Source: Lysinibacillus louembei
GTDB lineage: Bacteria > Bacillota > Bacilli > Bacillales_A > Planococcaceae
Direction of reading: 5' to 3'
Length of the DNA stretch: 64,000 bases
Assembly (NCBI RefSeq): GCF_033880585.1
Contig: NZ_CP137624.1
Coordinates: 2,267,501-2,331,500 of the forward strand
The notes under the pieces were generated by a model. That model was given only the letters and a program-made list of their open reading frames with translations. It was not told the DNA's origin and did no database searches. Position numbers and translations under genes: made by a program. Positions 9,563 through 58,024 of the stretch are shown in pieces (within the stretch, counting starts at the first letter, position 1; the number at the start of each line of letters is the position of its first letter).

Positions 9563-9596
9563 GAATTGTGTGGAAATTGTGTGTGTGCCTGGCACC
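9563..9596 (+). repeat. REP-like dispersed repeat, copy 1
   Basis: GAATTGTGTGG-AAATTGTGTG followed by TGTGCC-T-GGCAC: two AATTGTGTG units and a palindromic core. Downstream of the mta-like gene. Matching copies occur at 25268, 34240, 48858 (reverse), 54370 and 55219. Confidence 0.9.
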
Positions 9597-24882: not shown

Positions 24883-25269
24883 ATGGAAAAAGTATGGAGT
24901 ATACGTTTAATTCGTTTAGCAGCAATTTTTGGTTTAATAGGAGCAGTATTAGGCTCTGATATGGCAGGTTCGGGCAACTACCAATTTAGAGCAATTCATG
25001 CACATATGCTTGTTGTAGGCTGGCTATCCGTTTTTGCATGGGGATTATTTTATAAGATTTATCGTGTTCGTGTGAAAAAGTTGGTATCTTTACATGGTTG
25101 GATGACCGTGATAGGTTCAGTCGGTTTAACAATCGGCATGCTATTTTACAATGTCAATCCACTGCACATGAATGAAGTGTTCACATTAATTACGTTTATT
25201 GCAGGAGGCACTGCCCTATTAGTAAGCTTTTCGTTGTTTATTGCAATTACATTTTTGCTGGAGGAGTGA
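24883..25269 (+). CDS. Small four-helix membrane protein with HAH motif
   Basis: 128 residues, four predicted membrane helices (about 9-27, 38-60, 70-90, 98-125) and short loops. The N-terminal half holds QFRAIHAHMLVVGW (H39, H41), with another histidine in LHGWM (H71), all near membrane faces and suitable for heme or metal. The RAIHAHxxxxGW pattern recalls short relatives of heme-copper oxidase subunit I and NnrS-type proteins, but I cannot assign it. Its ribosome site is inside a terminator-like hairpin, and its stop codon abuts a REP-like repeat. Function unknown; a respiratory or heme-sensing role is a guess. Confidence 0.75.
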   Translation: MEKVWSIRLIRLAAIFGLIGAVLGSDMAGSGNYQFRAIHAHMLVVGWLSVFAWGLFYKIYRVRVKKLVSLHGWMTVIGSVGLTIGMLFYNVNPLHMNEVFTLITFIAGGTALLVSFSLFIAITFLLEE

Positions 25270-25309
25270 ATTGTGTGAGAATTGTGTGTGTGCCTGGCAC
25301 ACACACAAT
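25268..25309 (+). repeat. REP-like dispersed repeat, copy 2
   Basis: GAATTGTGTGAG then AATTGTGTGTGTGCC-T-GGCACACACACAATA, the most symmetrical copy: the palindrome reaches about 14 bp per arm. It begins at the stop codon of the small membrane protein and ends 35 bp before menE. Confidence 0.92.
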
Positions 25310-34239: not shown

Positions 34240-34273
34240 GAATTGTGTGCAAATTGTGTGTGTGCCTGGCACC
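34240..34273 (+). repeat. REP-like dispersed repeat, copy 3
   Basis: GAATTGTGTGC then AAATTGTGTGTG then TGCC-T-GGCACC. It lies between the start of the germination operon and the pckA terminator, so it is upstream of gerA on the minus strand. Confidence 0.9.
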
Positions 34274-48857: not shown

Positions 48858-48888
48858 AATTGTGTGGGTGCCAGGCACACACACAATT
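48858..48888 (-). repeat. REP-like dispersed repeat, copy 4 (reverse)
   Basis: Reads AATTGTGTGTG-TGCC-T-GGCACC-CACACAATT on the minus strand, the only reverse-oriented copy here. It lies 15 bp upstream of the cydD start, within the divergent cyd control region. Confidence 0.88.
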
Positions 48889-49093
48889 CTGACAATTAAC
48901 TACTATTAAGGTATACTAAGTTTGTGCTTTTTGAAAAGGAATACACTTGCAAGAATCAGCGTTTTTTGCGCTTTGTGACAAATTTCTGTATGTCGAATAT
49001 GTGAATATGTATGGAAGCAAAGTAACGACAATAGATTACGCTTATATTTAATGCTACGATGAAGGAAAAATAGGCAATAAAGGAGTGAGGGAA

Positions 49094-53239: not shown

Positions 53240-54412
53240 ATGCCAAGACAGGTATGGTATTTAGTCATCGGGATGTTTTTAAACACAGTAGGTAGCTCCT
53301 TTTTATGGCCTTTAAATGCTATATACATACACCATCATCTAGGAAAAACGTTAACGATTGCGGGTTTTGTGTTAATGCTCAATTCATTAGCGGCGGTCGT
53401 TGGTAATTTATTAGGTGGCTATTTGTTTGATAAAATTGGTGGCTTTAAAACAATTGTGATTGGTGTCACATTAAATATAGGCGCATTAAGCTTATTGATG
53501 TTTTGGCATGATTGGTGGCCTTACGTTATTTTGTTAACGGTTATCGGCTTTAGTGGAGGGGTAGTTTTTCCTGCAATGTATGCGTTGATAGGCGCTGCGT
53601 GGCCAGAAGGTGGGCGTAAAGCGTTCAATACGTTATTTTTATCGAATAATGTTGGGGTAGCGATTGGTCCTGCACTAGCAGGCTTTATCGCAGATATGAA
53701 TTTTGAATATGTTTTTAAAGCGAATTTCTTTACTTATTTAATTTTCTTCCTGCTCGTTGTCACAACATATAAACGCTTTGATACGAAAAGTATGGCACCG
53801 AAAAATGTTCTTACAGAAAGAGGGGGCAAGGAATCTAAGGCAGGACTTTATGCGTTATTTACTTTGTGTCTCGCTTTAGTATTATGCTGGATGTCGTATT
53901 CACAATGGAGTGCGACGATTTCTTCTTACACACAAGGCTTAGGTATGTCGCTCTCACAATATAGTGTGATTTGGACGATTAACGGCTTGCTCGTTGTCGG
54001 TTTCCAGCCAGTCATTCGTCCGCTCGTTCGACGTTGGGAGAAGAAGCTCAAGCATCAGCTCGCATTGGGACTTGTCTTAATGTCATTCTCCTTCTGTATC
54101 GTGGCGGTTGCAGAGGAATTCACAATGTTCGCGGTAGCGATGGTCATTTTAACATTAGGGGAAGTATTTTTCACACCTATTATTCCGACAATTGCTAATC
54201 AACTCGCCCCGAAAGGTCGACAAGGCTTTTACCAAGGCATTGTCAATAGTGCCACGACAATTGGACGAATGATTGGTCCACTATTTGGCGGGATGATGGT
54301 CGATATATTTGATATGCAGACATTGATGTGGAGTGTCGTTGTGCTGCTGCTCGTAGCAATTATCCCTGCATGTGCCTGGCACACAAACAATAAAGAAAAT
54401 TCAGAAAACTAA
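53240..54412 (+). CDS. yttB: MFS transporter YttB-like
   Basis: A 390-residue drug/proton-type MFS exporter with twelve helices: VGNLLGGYLFDKIGGFKTIVIG (loop 2-3 motif), FSGGVVFPAMYALIGAAWPEGGRKAFNTLFLSNNVGVAIGPALAGFIAD (motif C region). It matches the place of B. subtilis yttB near leuS, hence the tentative name. Its last residues (ACAWHTNNKENSEN) are encoded by a REP-like repeat core at 54370-54391, so the native C-terminus may have been replaced. The ATG follows GGAGAGAGG. Confidence 0.82.
   Translation: MPRQVWYLVIGMFLNTVGSSFLWPLNAIYIHHHLGKTLTIAGFVLMLNSLAAVVGNLLGGYLFDKIGGFKTIVIGVTLNIGALSLLMFWHDWWPYVILLTVIGFSGGVVFPAMYALIGAAWPEGGRKAFNTLFLSNNVGVAIGPALAGFIADMNFEYVFKANFFTYLIFFLLVVTTYKRFDTKSMAPKNVLTERGGKESKAGLYALFTLCLALVLCWMSYSQWSATISSYTQGLGMSLSQYSVIWTINGLLVVGFQPVIRPLVRRWEKKLKHQLALGLVLMSFSFCIVAVAEEFTMFAVAMVILTLGEVFFTPIIPTIANQLAPKGRQGFYQGIVNSATTIGRMIGPLFGGMMVDIFDMQTLMWSVVVLLLVAIIPACAWHTNNKENSEN
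54370..54391 (+). repeat. REP-like dispersed repeat, copy 5 (core, inside yttB)
   Basis: ATGTGCC-T-GGCACACAAACAA: the palindromic core and right flank without the upstream AATTGTGTG units. It lies in the final codons of yttB, 82 bp from the 3' end of the RAYT gene. Confidence 0.82.
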
Positions 54413-54426
54413 ATACAATTCAATCG

Positions 54427-54467
54427 AAAAGCTAGTGTCACAACGAGTGAGGACACTAGCTTTTGTT
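54427..54467 (+). terminator. Terminator of yttB
   Basis: AAAAGCTAGTGTC and GACACTAGCTTTT form a 13-bp stem with a 12-nt loop, followed by GTTAT; also suited to the convergent RAYT gene. Confidence 0.82.
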
Positions 54468-54472
54468 ATAGC

Positions 54473-55045
54473 TCAAGTCAATTGCAAATCATAATCATCC
54501 TCACAATGCATTAAATAGAGCTCTAGGGTAGCGTATCTGGAATGAGGTAAATAGGAGAGAAGTGAGTTTTTATGCAAAAAATTAAATGATACTGGAATGT
54601 TATGGTAGTAATAATAGAAAGAGCTATAAGGGTAAAGAGCTAGGGCTTCTACCAAGGGGGTAGTGGTATTGATTGGATTACGGTGAATATAGCGACTAAC
54701 AGCGATAATATCGAGGGCTGAAGGAACAATATCTGAAAAAAACCTTTTTTCATAGAGGTGACCAGTGTAGTCATATTTCTTCTTGAAATAATCACTATAA
54801 CGACGATTAATCATCGCCATGATTTTGCTGTGGGAAGCATGAGAAGAGCGCAGTAATAAATGATAATGATTTGGCATAATGCAAAAAGCAATAATGGAAA
54901 ATTGATATTTTTGATACGTGTACTCTAAAATTCGCAAGAAAGCTTGATAGTCAGCATGATGTAAAAAGATTGTTTGTCGATTATTTCCACGCATAACGAT
55001 ATGAAAATAGTGATGCGGTGACCAAAGACGATGTTTTCTAGGCAT
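54473..55045 (-). CDS. REP-associated tyrosine transposase (RAYT, IS200-like Y1 family)
   Basis: A 190-residue single-strand DNA transposase of the Y1/HUH superfamily. It starts MPRKHRLWSPHHYFHIVMRGNNRQTIF (typical RGN.R block). The metal-binding HUH motif is H60-Y-H62 in IMPNHYHLLLR, followed by GHLYEKRFFS. The catalytic tyrosine is Y119 in VSRYIHRNPI. RAYTs mobilise or maintain REP sequences rather than a full IS. ATG 55045 follows AAAAGGAGGG. REP-like cores lie on both sides (54370 and 55219), and there are no terminal inverted repeats of a normal IS. All key residues look intact. Confidence 0.92.
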   Translation of the reverse strand: MPRKHRLWSPHHYFHIVMRGNNRQTIFLHHADYQAFLRILEYTYQKYQFSIIAFCIMPNHYHLLLRSSHASHSKIMAMINRRYSDYFKKKYDYTGHLYEKRFFSDIVPSALDIIAVSRYIHRNPINTTTPLVEALALYPYSSFYYYYHNIPVSFNFLHKNSLLSYLPHSRYATLELYLMHCEDDYDLQLT

Positions 55046-55218
55046 AGCAGCCCTCCTTTTAGTATGAATTGAATATAGTGTAAAAACAATGATAAATCTT
55101 GTCAAATGGCTCAAGAAAGCACTTATTGTGCAAAGTGTTTGAAATTAGAAATTTGACTGTGAAAAACGAATGAAATTTGTCATTTGAATAGTAAAGTGCA
55201 TAAAAAATTTTTTTTCGT

Positions 55219-55253
55219 GAATTGTGTGGAAATTGTGTGTGTGCCTGGCACGC
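55219..55253 (+). repeat. REP-like dispersed repeat, copy 6
   Basis: GAATTGTGTGG-AAATTGTGTG then TGTGCC-T-GGCACGC, nearly the same as copy 1. It lies 174 bp upstream of the RAYT start and just before the leuS promoter. Confidence 0.92.
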
Positions 55254-55297: not shown

Positions 55298-55538
55298 ATT
55301 ATATACAACGACTATGACAAGGAGTAGTAAATTTCGACACTTTTTAGAGAGTTAGCGGTTGGTGTAAGCTAACAGGTGAACAAATTGAACTCGCCTTTGA
55401 GTTTGCTTTTAGATACTAAAAGCCGTGTTTTCGCGTTAAGAAGCTGGAGCTGAGTGCAGTGTCACTAATTTGGGTGGTACCGCGGGAGTCAAATATACTC
55501 TCGTCCCTTTCTACGGAAGGGGGCGAGTTTTTTATTTT
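55298..55538 (+). ncRNA. T-box leader for leucyl-tRNA synthetase
   Basis: Stem I with AGAGAGTTAGCGGTTGGTG-type region, a specifier region GAA-CTC-GCC whose CTC (55390-55392) is a leucine codon, and the T-box GGGTGGTACCGCG (55472-55484). A terminator stem (ACTC..TCCCTTTC / GAAGGGGGCGAGT) with TTTTTT ends at about 55536. Uncharged tRNA-Leu(GAG) should bind and permit leuS transcription. Confidence 0.95.
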
Positions 55539-55609
55539 TCTAAAAATTCAGTCACTTCGGTTTGGGCGATAGAAAACAAGTCGATACTATGATTTTGAGG
55601 AGGAGTAAT

Positions 55610-58024
55610 ATGAGTTTCAATCATCAAGAAATTGATAAGAAATGGCAGAAGTATTGGGCAGATAATAAAACATTTAAAACGGTGAATGACAACAGCAAGC
55701 CAAAATTTTTCGCGCTAGATATGTTTCCATATCCATCAGGTGCAGGCTTACACGTAGGGCACCCACTAGGCTATATTGCGACAGATATTTTAAGCTCATT
55801 TAAACGTATGCAAGGTTATAATGTCCTACATCCAATGGGCTGGGATGCGTTCGGCTTACCAGCGGAGCAATATGCGTTAGATACAGGCAATGACCCAGCG
55901 GAATTTACAGCGAAAAATATCGCAACATTTAAGCGTCAAATGAACGATTTAGGCTTTTCGTATGATTGGGATCGTGAAATTAATACGACAGACCCGAAAT
56001 ATTATAAATGGACGCAATGGATTTTCATCCAATTATTCAATCGTGGCTTAGCATATGTTGATGAAGTGCCTGTCAACTGGTGTCCCGCATTAGGTACAGT
56101 GCTTGCTAACGAGGAAGTAATCGATGGCTTATCAGAGCGTGGCGGACATCCTGTAGAGCGTCGCCCAATGCGTCAATGGATTTTACGCATTACGGAATAC
56201 GCGGATCGTCTATTAGAAGATTTAGATGAGCTTGATTGGCCAGAAAGCTTAAAAGAAATGCAGCGCAATTGGATTGGGCGCTCTGAAGGTGCAGAAGTAA
56301 CATTTAAAATCGATGGTACAGAGCATACATTTGATGTCTTCACAACGCGTCCAGATACGCTATTTGGTGCAACGTATGCAGTATTAGCACCAGAGCATAA
56401 GCTAGTTGCTGAAATTACAACAGCAGAGCATCGTGCACAAGTAGATGCATATCTTGATAAAGTAAAAACAAAATCAGACCTTGAGCGTACAGATTTAGCG
56501 AAGGAAAAAACGGGTGTCTTCACAGGCGCATATGCAGTGAATCCAATTAACGGTGCCAAAATCCCTGTATGGATTGCGGACTATGTGTTAGCAACTTACG
56601 GTACAGGCGCGATTATGGCGGTTCCTGCTCACGATGAGCGCGACTACGAATTTGCTAAGCAATTTGGCTTAGAAATTAAAGCGGTGCTTGCTGGTGGTGA
56701 TATTGAAAATGAAGCATTCACTGGTGATGGCGAGCATATTAATTCTGATTTCTTAAACGGTTTAAATAAAGAGGATGGCATTGCTAAGGCGATTGCATGG
56801 CTAGAGGAAAACGGTGTCGGTGAGAAGAAAATTTCATACCGTCTACGTGATTGGCTATTCTCACGTCAACGATATTGGGGTGAGCCAATTCCTGTTATTC
56901 ATTGGGAAGATGGCACAATGACGACTGTTCCAGAGGAAGAGCTACCATTAATGCTGCCAAAAACAAACGATATTCGCCCAAGCGGTACAGGTGAATCACC
57001 ACTTGCTAATATTGAAGAGTGGGTAAATGTAGTAGACCCTGTGACAGGGAAAAAAGGTCGCCGTGAAACAAATACGATGCCGCAATGGGCTGGTAGCTGC
57101 TGGTACTACCTACGCTATATCGACCCGAATAATGATGAAATGATTATCGATCCAGAGCTAGCAAAACGCTGGTTGCCTGTTGATATTTATGTTGGTGGCG
57201 CAGAGCATGCGGTGCTGCATTTACTATACGCTCGCTTCTGGCACAAAGTGCTATATGATATCGGTGTTGTGCATTCAAAAGAGCCATTCCAAAAGCTATT
57301 TAACCAAGGAATGATTTTAGGTGAAAACAACGAAAAAATGTCAAAATCAAAAGGCAATGTGATCAATCCAGATGATATCGTTGCATCACACGGTGCAGAC
57401 ACGCTACGCCTTTATGAAATGTTTATGGGACCGCTTGAAGCCTCAAAAGCATGGTCAACAAATGGCTTAGATGGCTCACGTCGCTTCCTAGAGCGCATTT
57501 GGCGTCTATTTATTGATGATAATGGCACAGTAAGCAGCAAAATCGTTGACACAAATGACGGCAAGCTAGAGCTTGTTTATCATCAAACAGTGAAAAAGGT
57601 AACAGAAGACTTTGAAGCAATGCGCTACAATACAGCCATTTCACAAATGATGGTATTCATTAATGAATGCTATAAGGTTGATGCTGTACCAAGAGAGTAT
57701 GCAGAAGGCTTTGTCCAAATGATTTCACCAATCGCTCGTCATATTGCAGAGGAGCTTTGGCAAAAGCTTGGTCATGCTGAAACAATTACGTATTCTACAT
57801 GGCCAACATTCGACCCATCGAAGCTTGTAGAAGATGAAGTGGAAGTTGTTGTACAAGTACTAGGCAAAGTGCGTGCAAAAGTAAAAGTTGCAAAAGATAT
57901 TTCGAAGGAAGGCCTAGAAGCTGCTGCATTAGCAGATGACAAAGTACAAGAATTTATCGCAGGTAAAGACGTTGTCAAAGTGATTGTTATTCCAGGTAAA
58001 TTAGTTAATATCGTAGTGAAGTAA
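55610..58024 (+). CDS. leuS: Leucyl-tRNA synthetase LeuS
   Basis: Class I aminoacyl-tRNA synthetase of 804 residues, the same length as in B. subtilis. The HIGH-equivalent is in [21 protein letters not shown] (about 40-55). The editing CP1 domain has [12 protein letters not shown] and [12 protein letters not shown]. The Zn-region and WSYYLRY-type [12 protein letters not shown] follow, and KMSKSKGN is at about residue 575. The ATG at 55610 follows GAGGAGGAG; a longer frame to 55562 is not needed. Control is by the T-box leader. Followed by a terminator. Confidence 0.98.

Follow-up and report, generated by a model that had tools for sequence, protein, structure and literature searches.

A probable REP/RAYT system of variant type beside leuS in Lysinibacillus louembei and its relatives

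Background

Does the single Y1 transposase gene that stands next to leuS in Lysinibacillus louembei, between two copies of a short dispersed palindrome, form a REP/RAYT system with the repeats of its genome? RAYTs are a rare instance of domesticated bacterial transposases with partner repeats that still spread, and the available descriptions of them come mainly from Proteobacteria, with REPs tied to a GTAG-like tag. In the available sections of Nunvar et al. (PMC2817692), qualifying homologues are reported in Gammaproteobacteria only, all with GT(A/G)G heads, while the accessible part of Di Nocera et al. (PMC3733652) lists GTAG repeats in Proteobacteria, Cyanobacteria, Chloroflexi and the PVC group. 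The open literature searched yielded no account of a REP/RAYT pair from Firmicutes. In two Geobacillus genome papers, RayT-annotated genes appear only as counts in a table, and a literature search by sequence returned only unrelated primers among the matches listed.

The question goes back to an earlier note on a stretch of 64,000 nucleotides of this genome, here called the window, in which a candidate REP/RAYT system was proposed from the letters alone. The gene and its repeats were followed through the 3.96-Mb genome and through a comparison set of 261 genomes of the family, in which a genome was counted as a carrier if it had a homologue of the transposase at E 1e-5. A search extended to the order yielded no genomes other than these 261, so nothing can be said beyond the family.

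Results

The transposase gene lies at 54473..55045 on the minus strand and encodes 190 amino acids with the motifs NHYH, Y119-IHRNP and YPYSS. Its description as a Y1/HUH transposase with intact H60, H62 and Y119 was confirmed, and these residues, together with N123 and P124, do not vary among 37 aligned homologues. The protein has the HUH motif and the single catalytic tyrosine that are required of a RAYT (TnpA-REP), and Y119, N123 and P124 meet the class 2 signature Y---NP given in the available text of PMC6006769. A Pfam scan matched Y1_Tnp with 64.3 bits (cut-off 23) and returned no other family at E 0.1, so a C-terminal HTH was not found by this search. The NCBIfam RAYT model NF047646 was the best match of the protein, but the 65.6 bits obtained remain below the curated cut-off of 80, which is exceeded in 15 of the 261 family genomes. 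The gammaproteobacterial RAYT motif NP(L/V)(R/K)xG, as stated in the accessible part of PMC2817692, is absent from the protein, which has NPINT instead.

The AlphaFold2 model of the transposase (mean pLDDT 90.6) had its best solved match in 4er8, the E. coli TnpA-REP with its REP hairpin (Z 17.3 over 150 residues), followed by IS608, whose best chain reached Z 10.3 over 100 residues. On this model, the predicted fold is of the TnpA-REP type rather than that of an IS200 TnpA. The single protein found nothing among the PDB sequences at E 0.1; a profile searched against them at E 0.01 gave 4er8 as its sole match (E 0.0038).

There is one copy of the gene in the genome, the only other match having an E-value of 0.03 and two stops, and the combination of one gene with 54 cognate repeats satisfies the expectation of low gene copy number and many repeats for a RAYT. 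The gene evolves slowly and is under purifying selection: dN/dS was 0.04-0.18 in the five of six species pairs for which it could be computed, with dS saturated in some of them. A plasmid search with the transposase returned 11 records, all below 60% identity and each with less than 80% of the query covered; thus, no plasmid carrier of the gene was found in that collection.

On the upstream side of the gene, the REP copy at 55219..55251 (plus strand) reads GAATTGTGTG-GA-AATTGTGTG-T-GTGCCTGGCAC. The downstream copy at 54372..54403 overlaps the 3' end of an MFS transporter gene (53240..54412, plus strand). It had been taken for a bare core, which proved wrong, as reading it on the minus strand reveals an intact palindrome with a decayed head, inverted relative to the upstream copy. 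The divergent neighbour of the transposase gene is leuS (55562..58024, plus strand), whose T-box leader (55305..55511, plus strand; RF00230, 125.5 bits, gathering score 93) lies directly downstream of the upstream REP.

One palindrome copy is present on each side of the gene in all four carriers of the genus, which is assigned here to Metasolibacillus, as expected of a RAYT with two inverted REP flanks. A divergent leuS was found in these four genomes, in all eight carriers of genus g8 and in G234, and the same MFS gene lies behind the transposase gene in the Metasolibacillus carriers and G234; in the remaining 17 of 30 loci, no leuS was found within 1,500 bp of the homologue. The gene is therefore stationary, and its position beside leuS has been kept across three genera. 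In G004, the sole member of Metasolibacillus without the gene, the interval from the MFS gene to leuS lacks the segment comprising both REPs and the gene, and a degenerate palindrome trace is located at the MFS end (contig C3 near 59650, L157).

All six palindromes reported for the window were recovered as exact sites of the 11-mer GTGCCTGGCAC. When one mismatch was allowed, 13 strand-matches were obtained in the window against a mean of 0.74, and none of 100 shuffles reached as many. Genome-wide, there are 57 exact sites of GTGCCTGGCAC, compared to 0 for a reversed control pattern; head-based orientation placed 40 of these sites on the plus and 17 on the minus strand. Three sites (2492124, 2673518 and 2972574) were treated as chance occurrences because they lie inside ORFs and have no head, leaving 54 copies with element context. 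Compared with mechanically called ORFs of at least 100 aa, 34 copies lie outside, 17 overlap one no further than 45 nt from its end and 3 are located deeper inside. These numbers correct the earlier description of the copies as all lying at gene ends or starts. Being short, high-copy, extragenic and capable of forming a hairpin, the palindrome meets the general description of a REP.

The consensus of 36 aligned and oriented copies is (T)(A/G)AATTGTGTG-n-R-AATTGTGTG-t-GTGCCTGGCAC, with conservation starting at -22/-23 and stopping at the palindrome, whose centre is T in 35 of the 36. In the window, the tandem AATTGTGTG head noted earlier is present upstream of the transposase gene and in the plus-strand copies at 9563..9595, 25268..25300 and 34240..34272. 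The remaining window copy (48868..48899, minus strand) had been listed with a degenerate flank; the copy is real, while its flank turned out to be a second head type, AATTGTCAGAATTGTGTG. Among the 54 genomic copies, 31 have the double head, 11 the second head (AATTGTCAGAATTGTTTG-like) and 5 REPIN-like arms, and 7 are of other types or decayed. Only 2 of the 54 have a GT[AG]G at most 2 nt away from the palindrome, and the canonical REP rule, as given in the available text of PMC6006769, is not met.

Inverted pairs, or REPINs, had been suggested as a point to check. They do exist but form a minority: only two pairs of copies are less than 400 bp apart, both are inverted with the structure GTGCCAGGCACAGAAACAATTC-W-GAATTGTTTCTGTGCCTGGCAC and with cores 34 bp apart, and they account for 4 of the 54 copies, so the repeats do not fulfil the REPIN criterion of occurring mostly as inverted pairs. 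Pairs with the same spacing, judged from positions only, also occur in G001, G002, G039, G043, G045 and G059. The palindrome can form a hairpin with a 4-bp stem and a 3-nt loop, and in some copies the flanks extend the stem. As a single strand, the window copy folds only weakly (-3.5 kcal/mol, z -2.1, with 11 of 200 shuffles as good), while much better folds (z -7 to -11) were obtained for the inverted pair and for the more symmetrical elements next to the gene in relatives.

Homologues were found in 132 of the 261 family genomes. Of the 51 genomes in which any of the palindromes tested reaches 10 copies or more, 47 are carriers, and none of 20000 within-genus permutations reached this number; as the genomes are related, however, the permutation overstates their independence. 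For GTGCCTGGCAC alone, 35 of the 37 genomes with at least 10 copies are carriers. Within genera, copy number tracks the gene, in support of the proposed REP/RAYT system. Four Metasolibacillus carriers have 57, 58, 44 and 50 copies, compared to 2 in G004, and in g8, eight carriers have 18-148 copies, whereas the 24 non-carriers have 0-7 (23 of them 0-1). The highest of these non-carrier counts, 7, belongs to G035, a genome that is 86% complete. Across the 261 genomes, the repeats are thus abundant almost only where a homologue occurs.

Equal repeat numbers without the gene, which would have refuted the proposal, were not seen, though four of the 261 genomes (G174, G235, G255 and G256) have no homologue at E 1e-5 and keep 14-23 repeats each. 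NF047646 has no match in three of them and one at 3.7e-4 in G174. Gene loss possibly explains these cases. It must be considered that the copy-number thresholds of 7, 9 and 10 were chosen after the counts were known, and that the copy numbers in this tally were entered by hand, with only the higher counts entered for the palindrome classes B and C described below.

Two genomes with many copies show further features. In G057 (148 copies; L215-L244), a second repeat, AAAATCCAC...GTGGATTTTT, is found next to many of the REPs, frequently in same-orientation pairs 100-205 bp apart, including a run at C1:1715606-1716648 spaced by about 204 bp. G020 has 128 GTGCCTGGCAC copies and a homologue on a long branch, with two copies on either side that lack AATTGT heads.

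The palindromes beside the homologues were compared at 89 loci, comprising the 30 best-scoring and 59 of 60 picked by hand among the matches listed, as L139 is a duplicate of L077 and was dropped. Three stems were found: A (GTGCC/GGCAC), B (GTACC/GGTAC) and C (GTGAC/GTCAC). All three retain base pairing although both sides have changed, and of the 63 palindromes counted, 61 have the loop CAG/CTG and 2 have CCG/CGG. The same class flanks the gene on both sides at 24 of the 89 loci and on at least one side at 41; at the other 48, none of the three classes was found within 400 bp of the homologue. A tandem head at 10-12 bp, made of two AATTGT-like units with at most one mismatch each, precedes 21 of 48 A, 3 of 14 B and 6 of 11 C flanking palindromes, and the spacing is 11 bp in 28 of these 30; this tally had no shuffled control. 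One homologue, L073 (G164), stands beside a different palindrome, GTGCACCGGGTGCAC.

Classes B and C were read from the gene flanks before their copies in the genomes were counted, and the matching was assessed over the 82 genomes whose homologue loci had been examined. Of 29 genomes with an A flank, 28 have at least 9 A copies, compared to 8 of 53 without; richness in B was found in 6 of 6 B-flank genomes and 1 of 76 others, and at least 7 C copies in 5 of 6 C-flank genomes and 5 of 76 others. The prediction from the flank was thus correct in all six genomes for B (GTACCNGGTAC) and in five of six for C (GTGACTGTCAC). The predicted B genomes have 79 (G233), 36 (G237), 31 (G236), 25 (G246), 22 (G249) and 9 (G239) copies, while the other 255 genomes have at most 7, apart from G016 with 12. 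The flanks in G239 have a C centre, and this form, GTACCCGGTAC, has 27 copies there, 23 in G256, which has no homologue, and at most 4 elsewhere. The predicted C genomes have 64 (G200), 59 (G186), 44 (G190), 21 (G099) and 7 (G087) copies, and G139, with 3, is the failure.

The correspondence has exceptions. C counts of 59 (G185), 34 (G216), 15 (G174) and 12 (G191) were not predicted from the examined flanks, and G216 has A flanks, yet carries 34 C copies. G051, G060, G067, G100, G182, G187, G190 and G191 are rich in A without an exact A flank, although G051 and G060 have one with a single mismatch, and G146 has an A flank but only 3 copies. As far as can be judged from these sequences, the letters of the repeats usually match those beside the gene.

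One homologue, L064, switched its palindrome class together with its genome. It has A flanks but is placed inside the B clade of the 89-homologue tree (SH-aLRT 99, 84 and 90; a quick tree without bootstrap), and its genome, G245, contains 55 A copies and 1 B copy.

Gain and loss of copies were examined by comparing individual sites with those of relatives. All 17 testable sites are shared with G002, a member of the same species, one with a core mismatch, and none of these 17 gave evidence of recent movement within the species. In G001, 6 of 13 testable sites are shared, in G003 3 of 5, and in G004, which lacks the gene, none of 4. Among the sites not shared, one in G003 and one in G004 are altered palindromes. 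Among the window copies, that at 9563 is absent in G001 and G004, that at 34240 is present in G002 and absent in G001, G003 and G004, and that at 48868 is present in G002 and G003 and absent in G001 and G004. The copy at 25268 is intact in G001 and G002 and has one core mismatch in G003. At this site, G004 has GTACCGGGTAC (C3:28257), a palindrome in which the two arms have changed together; G004 was considered as a carrier of a GTACCSGGTAC family, which was rejected, as it has only 2 copies.

Two empty sites are clean, both of 46 bp: window position 9585, absent in G004, and genome position 3302462, absent in G001. At the other absences, the flanks are rearranged. The two inserts begin at -31 and -35 from the palindrome, so a common insertion register was rejected and the true ends of the unit are not fixed. 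A target-site duplication was likewise rejected, because left and right flanks were no more alike than shuffled pairs. For 32 copies of this genome, 36, 34 and 38 of 200 shuffled pairs scored as high without gaps and 78, 30 and 64 of 300 with gaps, and for 29 copies in G057, 162 of 300 did. Only site 3302462 shows a weak, suggestive duplication.

Discussion

The locus and its repeats very probably represent a REP/RAYT system with a domesticated Y1 HUH transposase, in which binding, cleavage, a single-stranded DNA intermediate and the replication of units are inferred. It is a system of a variant type, without the GT[AG]G tag, with a tandem AATTGTnTG head at 11-bp spacing and with mostly single units. 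There is a high likelihood that the protein works like a RAYT, although no biochemistry is available. That it acts on these repeats was an inference in the earlier note and remains one, now backed by the matching of cognate palindromes.

Under this interpretation, the transposase would recognise GTGC-CWG-GCAC as a single-stranded hairpin, together with two AATTGTnTG units spaced 11 bp, and would cut via Y119. The hairpin may be handled as by the E. coli TnpA-REP, for which the accessible part of PMC8266576 describes cleavage near the REP. Units of about 46 bp would be copied into intergenic sites over evolutionary time, with rare events adding single units between genes, while the gene itself would remain as a single copy beside leuS. 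The stem letters would then be the variable, partner-specific part of the element and the head and CNG loop the more constant part, with the AATTGTnTG head occupying the place of GTAG in known REPs.

Other explanations for the repeats and the gene have to be considered. The repeats could be fixed regulatory sites, that is, double-stranded protein-binding sites made up of a palindrome and two AATTGTGTG boxes at a distance of one helical turn, with the transposase gene as a bystander. The 11-bp box spacing, the intergenic or gene-edge location of most copies and the upstream copy just before the leuS T-box would be compatible with this. However, it is very unlikely given that repeat presence tracks the gene within genera, that the palindrome abundant in a genome usually equals that of the gene flanks, including one switch in the homologue tree, and that clean 46-bp empty sites exist; a shared regulon is not excluded, as the neighbouring genes were not classified. 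Alternatively, another enzyme, such as that of a DDE element with a MITE, may spread the repeats, and the RAYT may only bind them or coevolve with them. Four repeat-rich genomes without a detectable RAYT, the weak duplication at site 3302462 and the two clean inserts, which exceed the conserved 33-bp element by about 13 bp and could hide a target duplication, leave some room for such a mover. It is nevertheless highly improbable, since flank likeness did not exceed that of shuffled pairs in either genome and the co-occurrence is specific to the RAYT gene family, although other transposase families were not compared.

That the gene belongs to an ordinary IS200/IS605 insertion sequence whose ends were left as solo remnants is scarcely tenable. 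The Y1_Tnp match and the HUH motif with its tyrosine are common to IS200, but one gene copy faces 54 repeats, and the near-identical transposase copies expected of an insertion sequence are lacking. The model is nearer to TnpA-REP than to IS608, and YIHRNP differs from the Y[IV]ENQ that the available text of PMC6006769 lists for IS200. Moreover, the place beside leuS is kept in three genera and the gene is under purifying selection. Copy number, signature, fold and conserved position were the grounds on which an ordinary IS200 identity was rejected.

Interpreted as a REP/RAYT system, the locus resembles those of Gammaproteobacteria (E. coli, Pseudomonas, Stenotrophomonas) in several respects. 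According to the available sections of PMC2817692, these also combine a single-copy Y1 HUH protein of the same fold with flanking inverted palindromes, many cognate extragenic repeats and coevolution of gene and repeat. They differ in that the repeats described here have a tandem AATTGTnTG head, rarely a GT[AG]G near the hairpin (2 of 54), a stem of 4 bp around a 3-nt loop that flanks lengthen in some copies, and occur mostly as single units, and in the protein motif, which is NP(L/V)(R/K)xG there and NPINT here. Compared to REPINs (Bertels and Rainey 2011, PMC3116915), inverted pairs exist here as well; however, singlets are regarded as defunct remnants in the accessible part of that work, whereas conserved single units are the majority here, and the two empty sites show that single units are gained or lost. 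TIRYT elements (Di Nocera et al. 2013, PMC3733652) likewise have Y1 genes flanked by non-GTAG repeats but, as far as the available text describes them, long terminal inverted repeats, several with GGGGWSAS, instead of short palindromes with a tandem head.

The transposase is closest to TnpA-Y1 subclass 2.1 (RAYT group 1; Quentin et al. 2018, PMC6006769), although this rests on motif resemblance only and membership has not been settled by a reference tree. The motifs NH[YF]H, Y[IV]HLNP and SS given for this subclass correspond to NHYH, YIHRNP and YPYSS. In the sections available, the subclass is reported to have a C-terminal HTH, which Pfam did not detect here, and to be without REP-like sequences near the gene, which are present here. 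A further-reaching interpretation, for which the arguments are evenly balanced at present, is that the system forms a distinct Bacillales branch of REP/RAYT systems, derived from a transposase type thought to be REP-less. In such a branch, the tandem head would replace the GTAG guide, a single unit of about 46 bp would take the role of the REPIN, and the stem would act as a switching lock-and-key with the protein.

Conclusions

The three interchangeable stems on a common head, together with a natural stem switch, provide ready pairs for mapping the residues that read the hairpin, and this Gram-positive set is suited to asking whether a lone REP can move. If the protein is of the REP-less type, the statement that this type lacks REPs would need to be revised.
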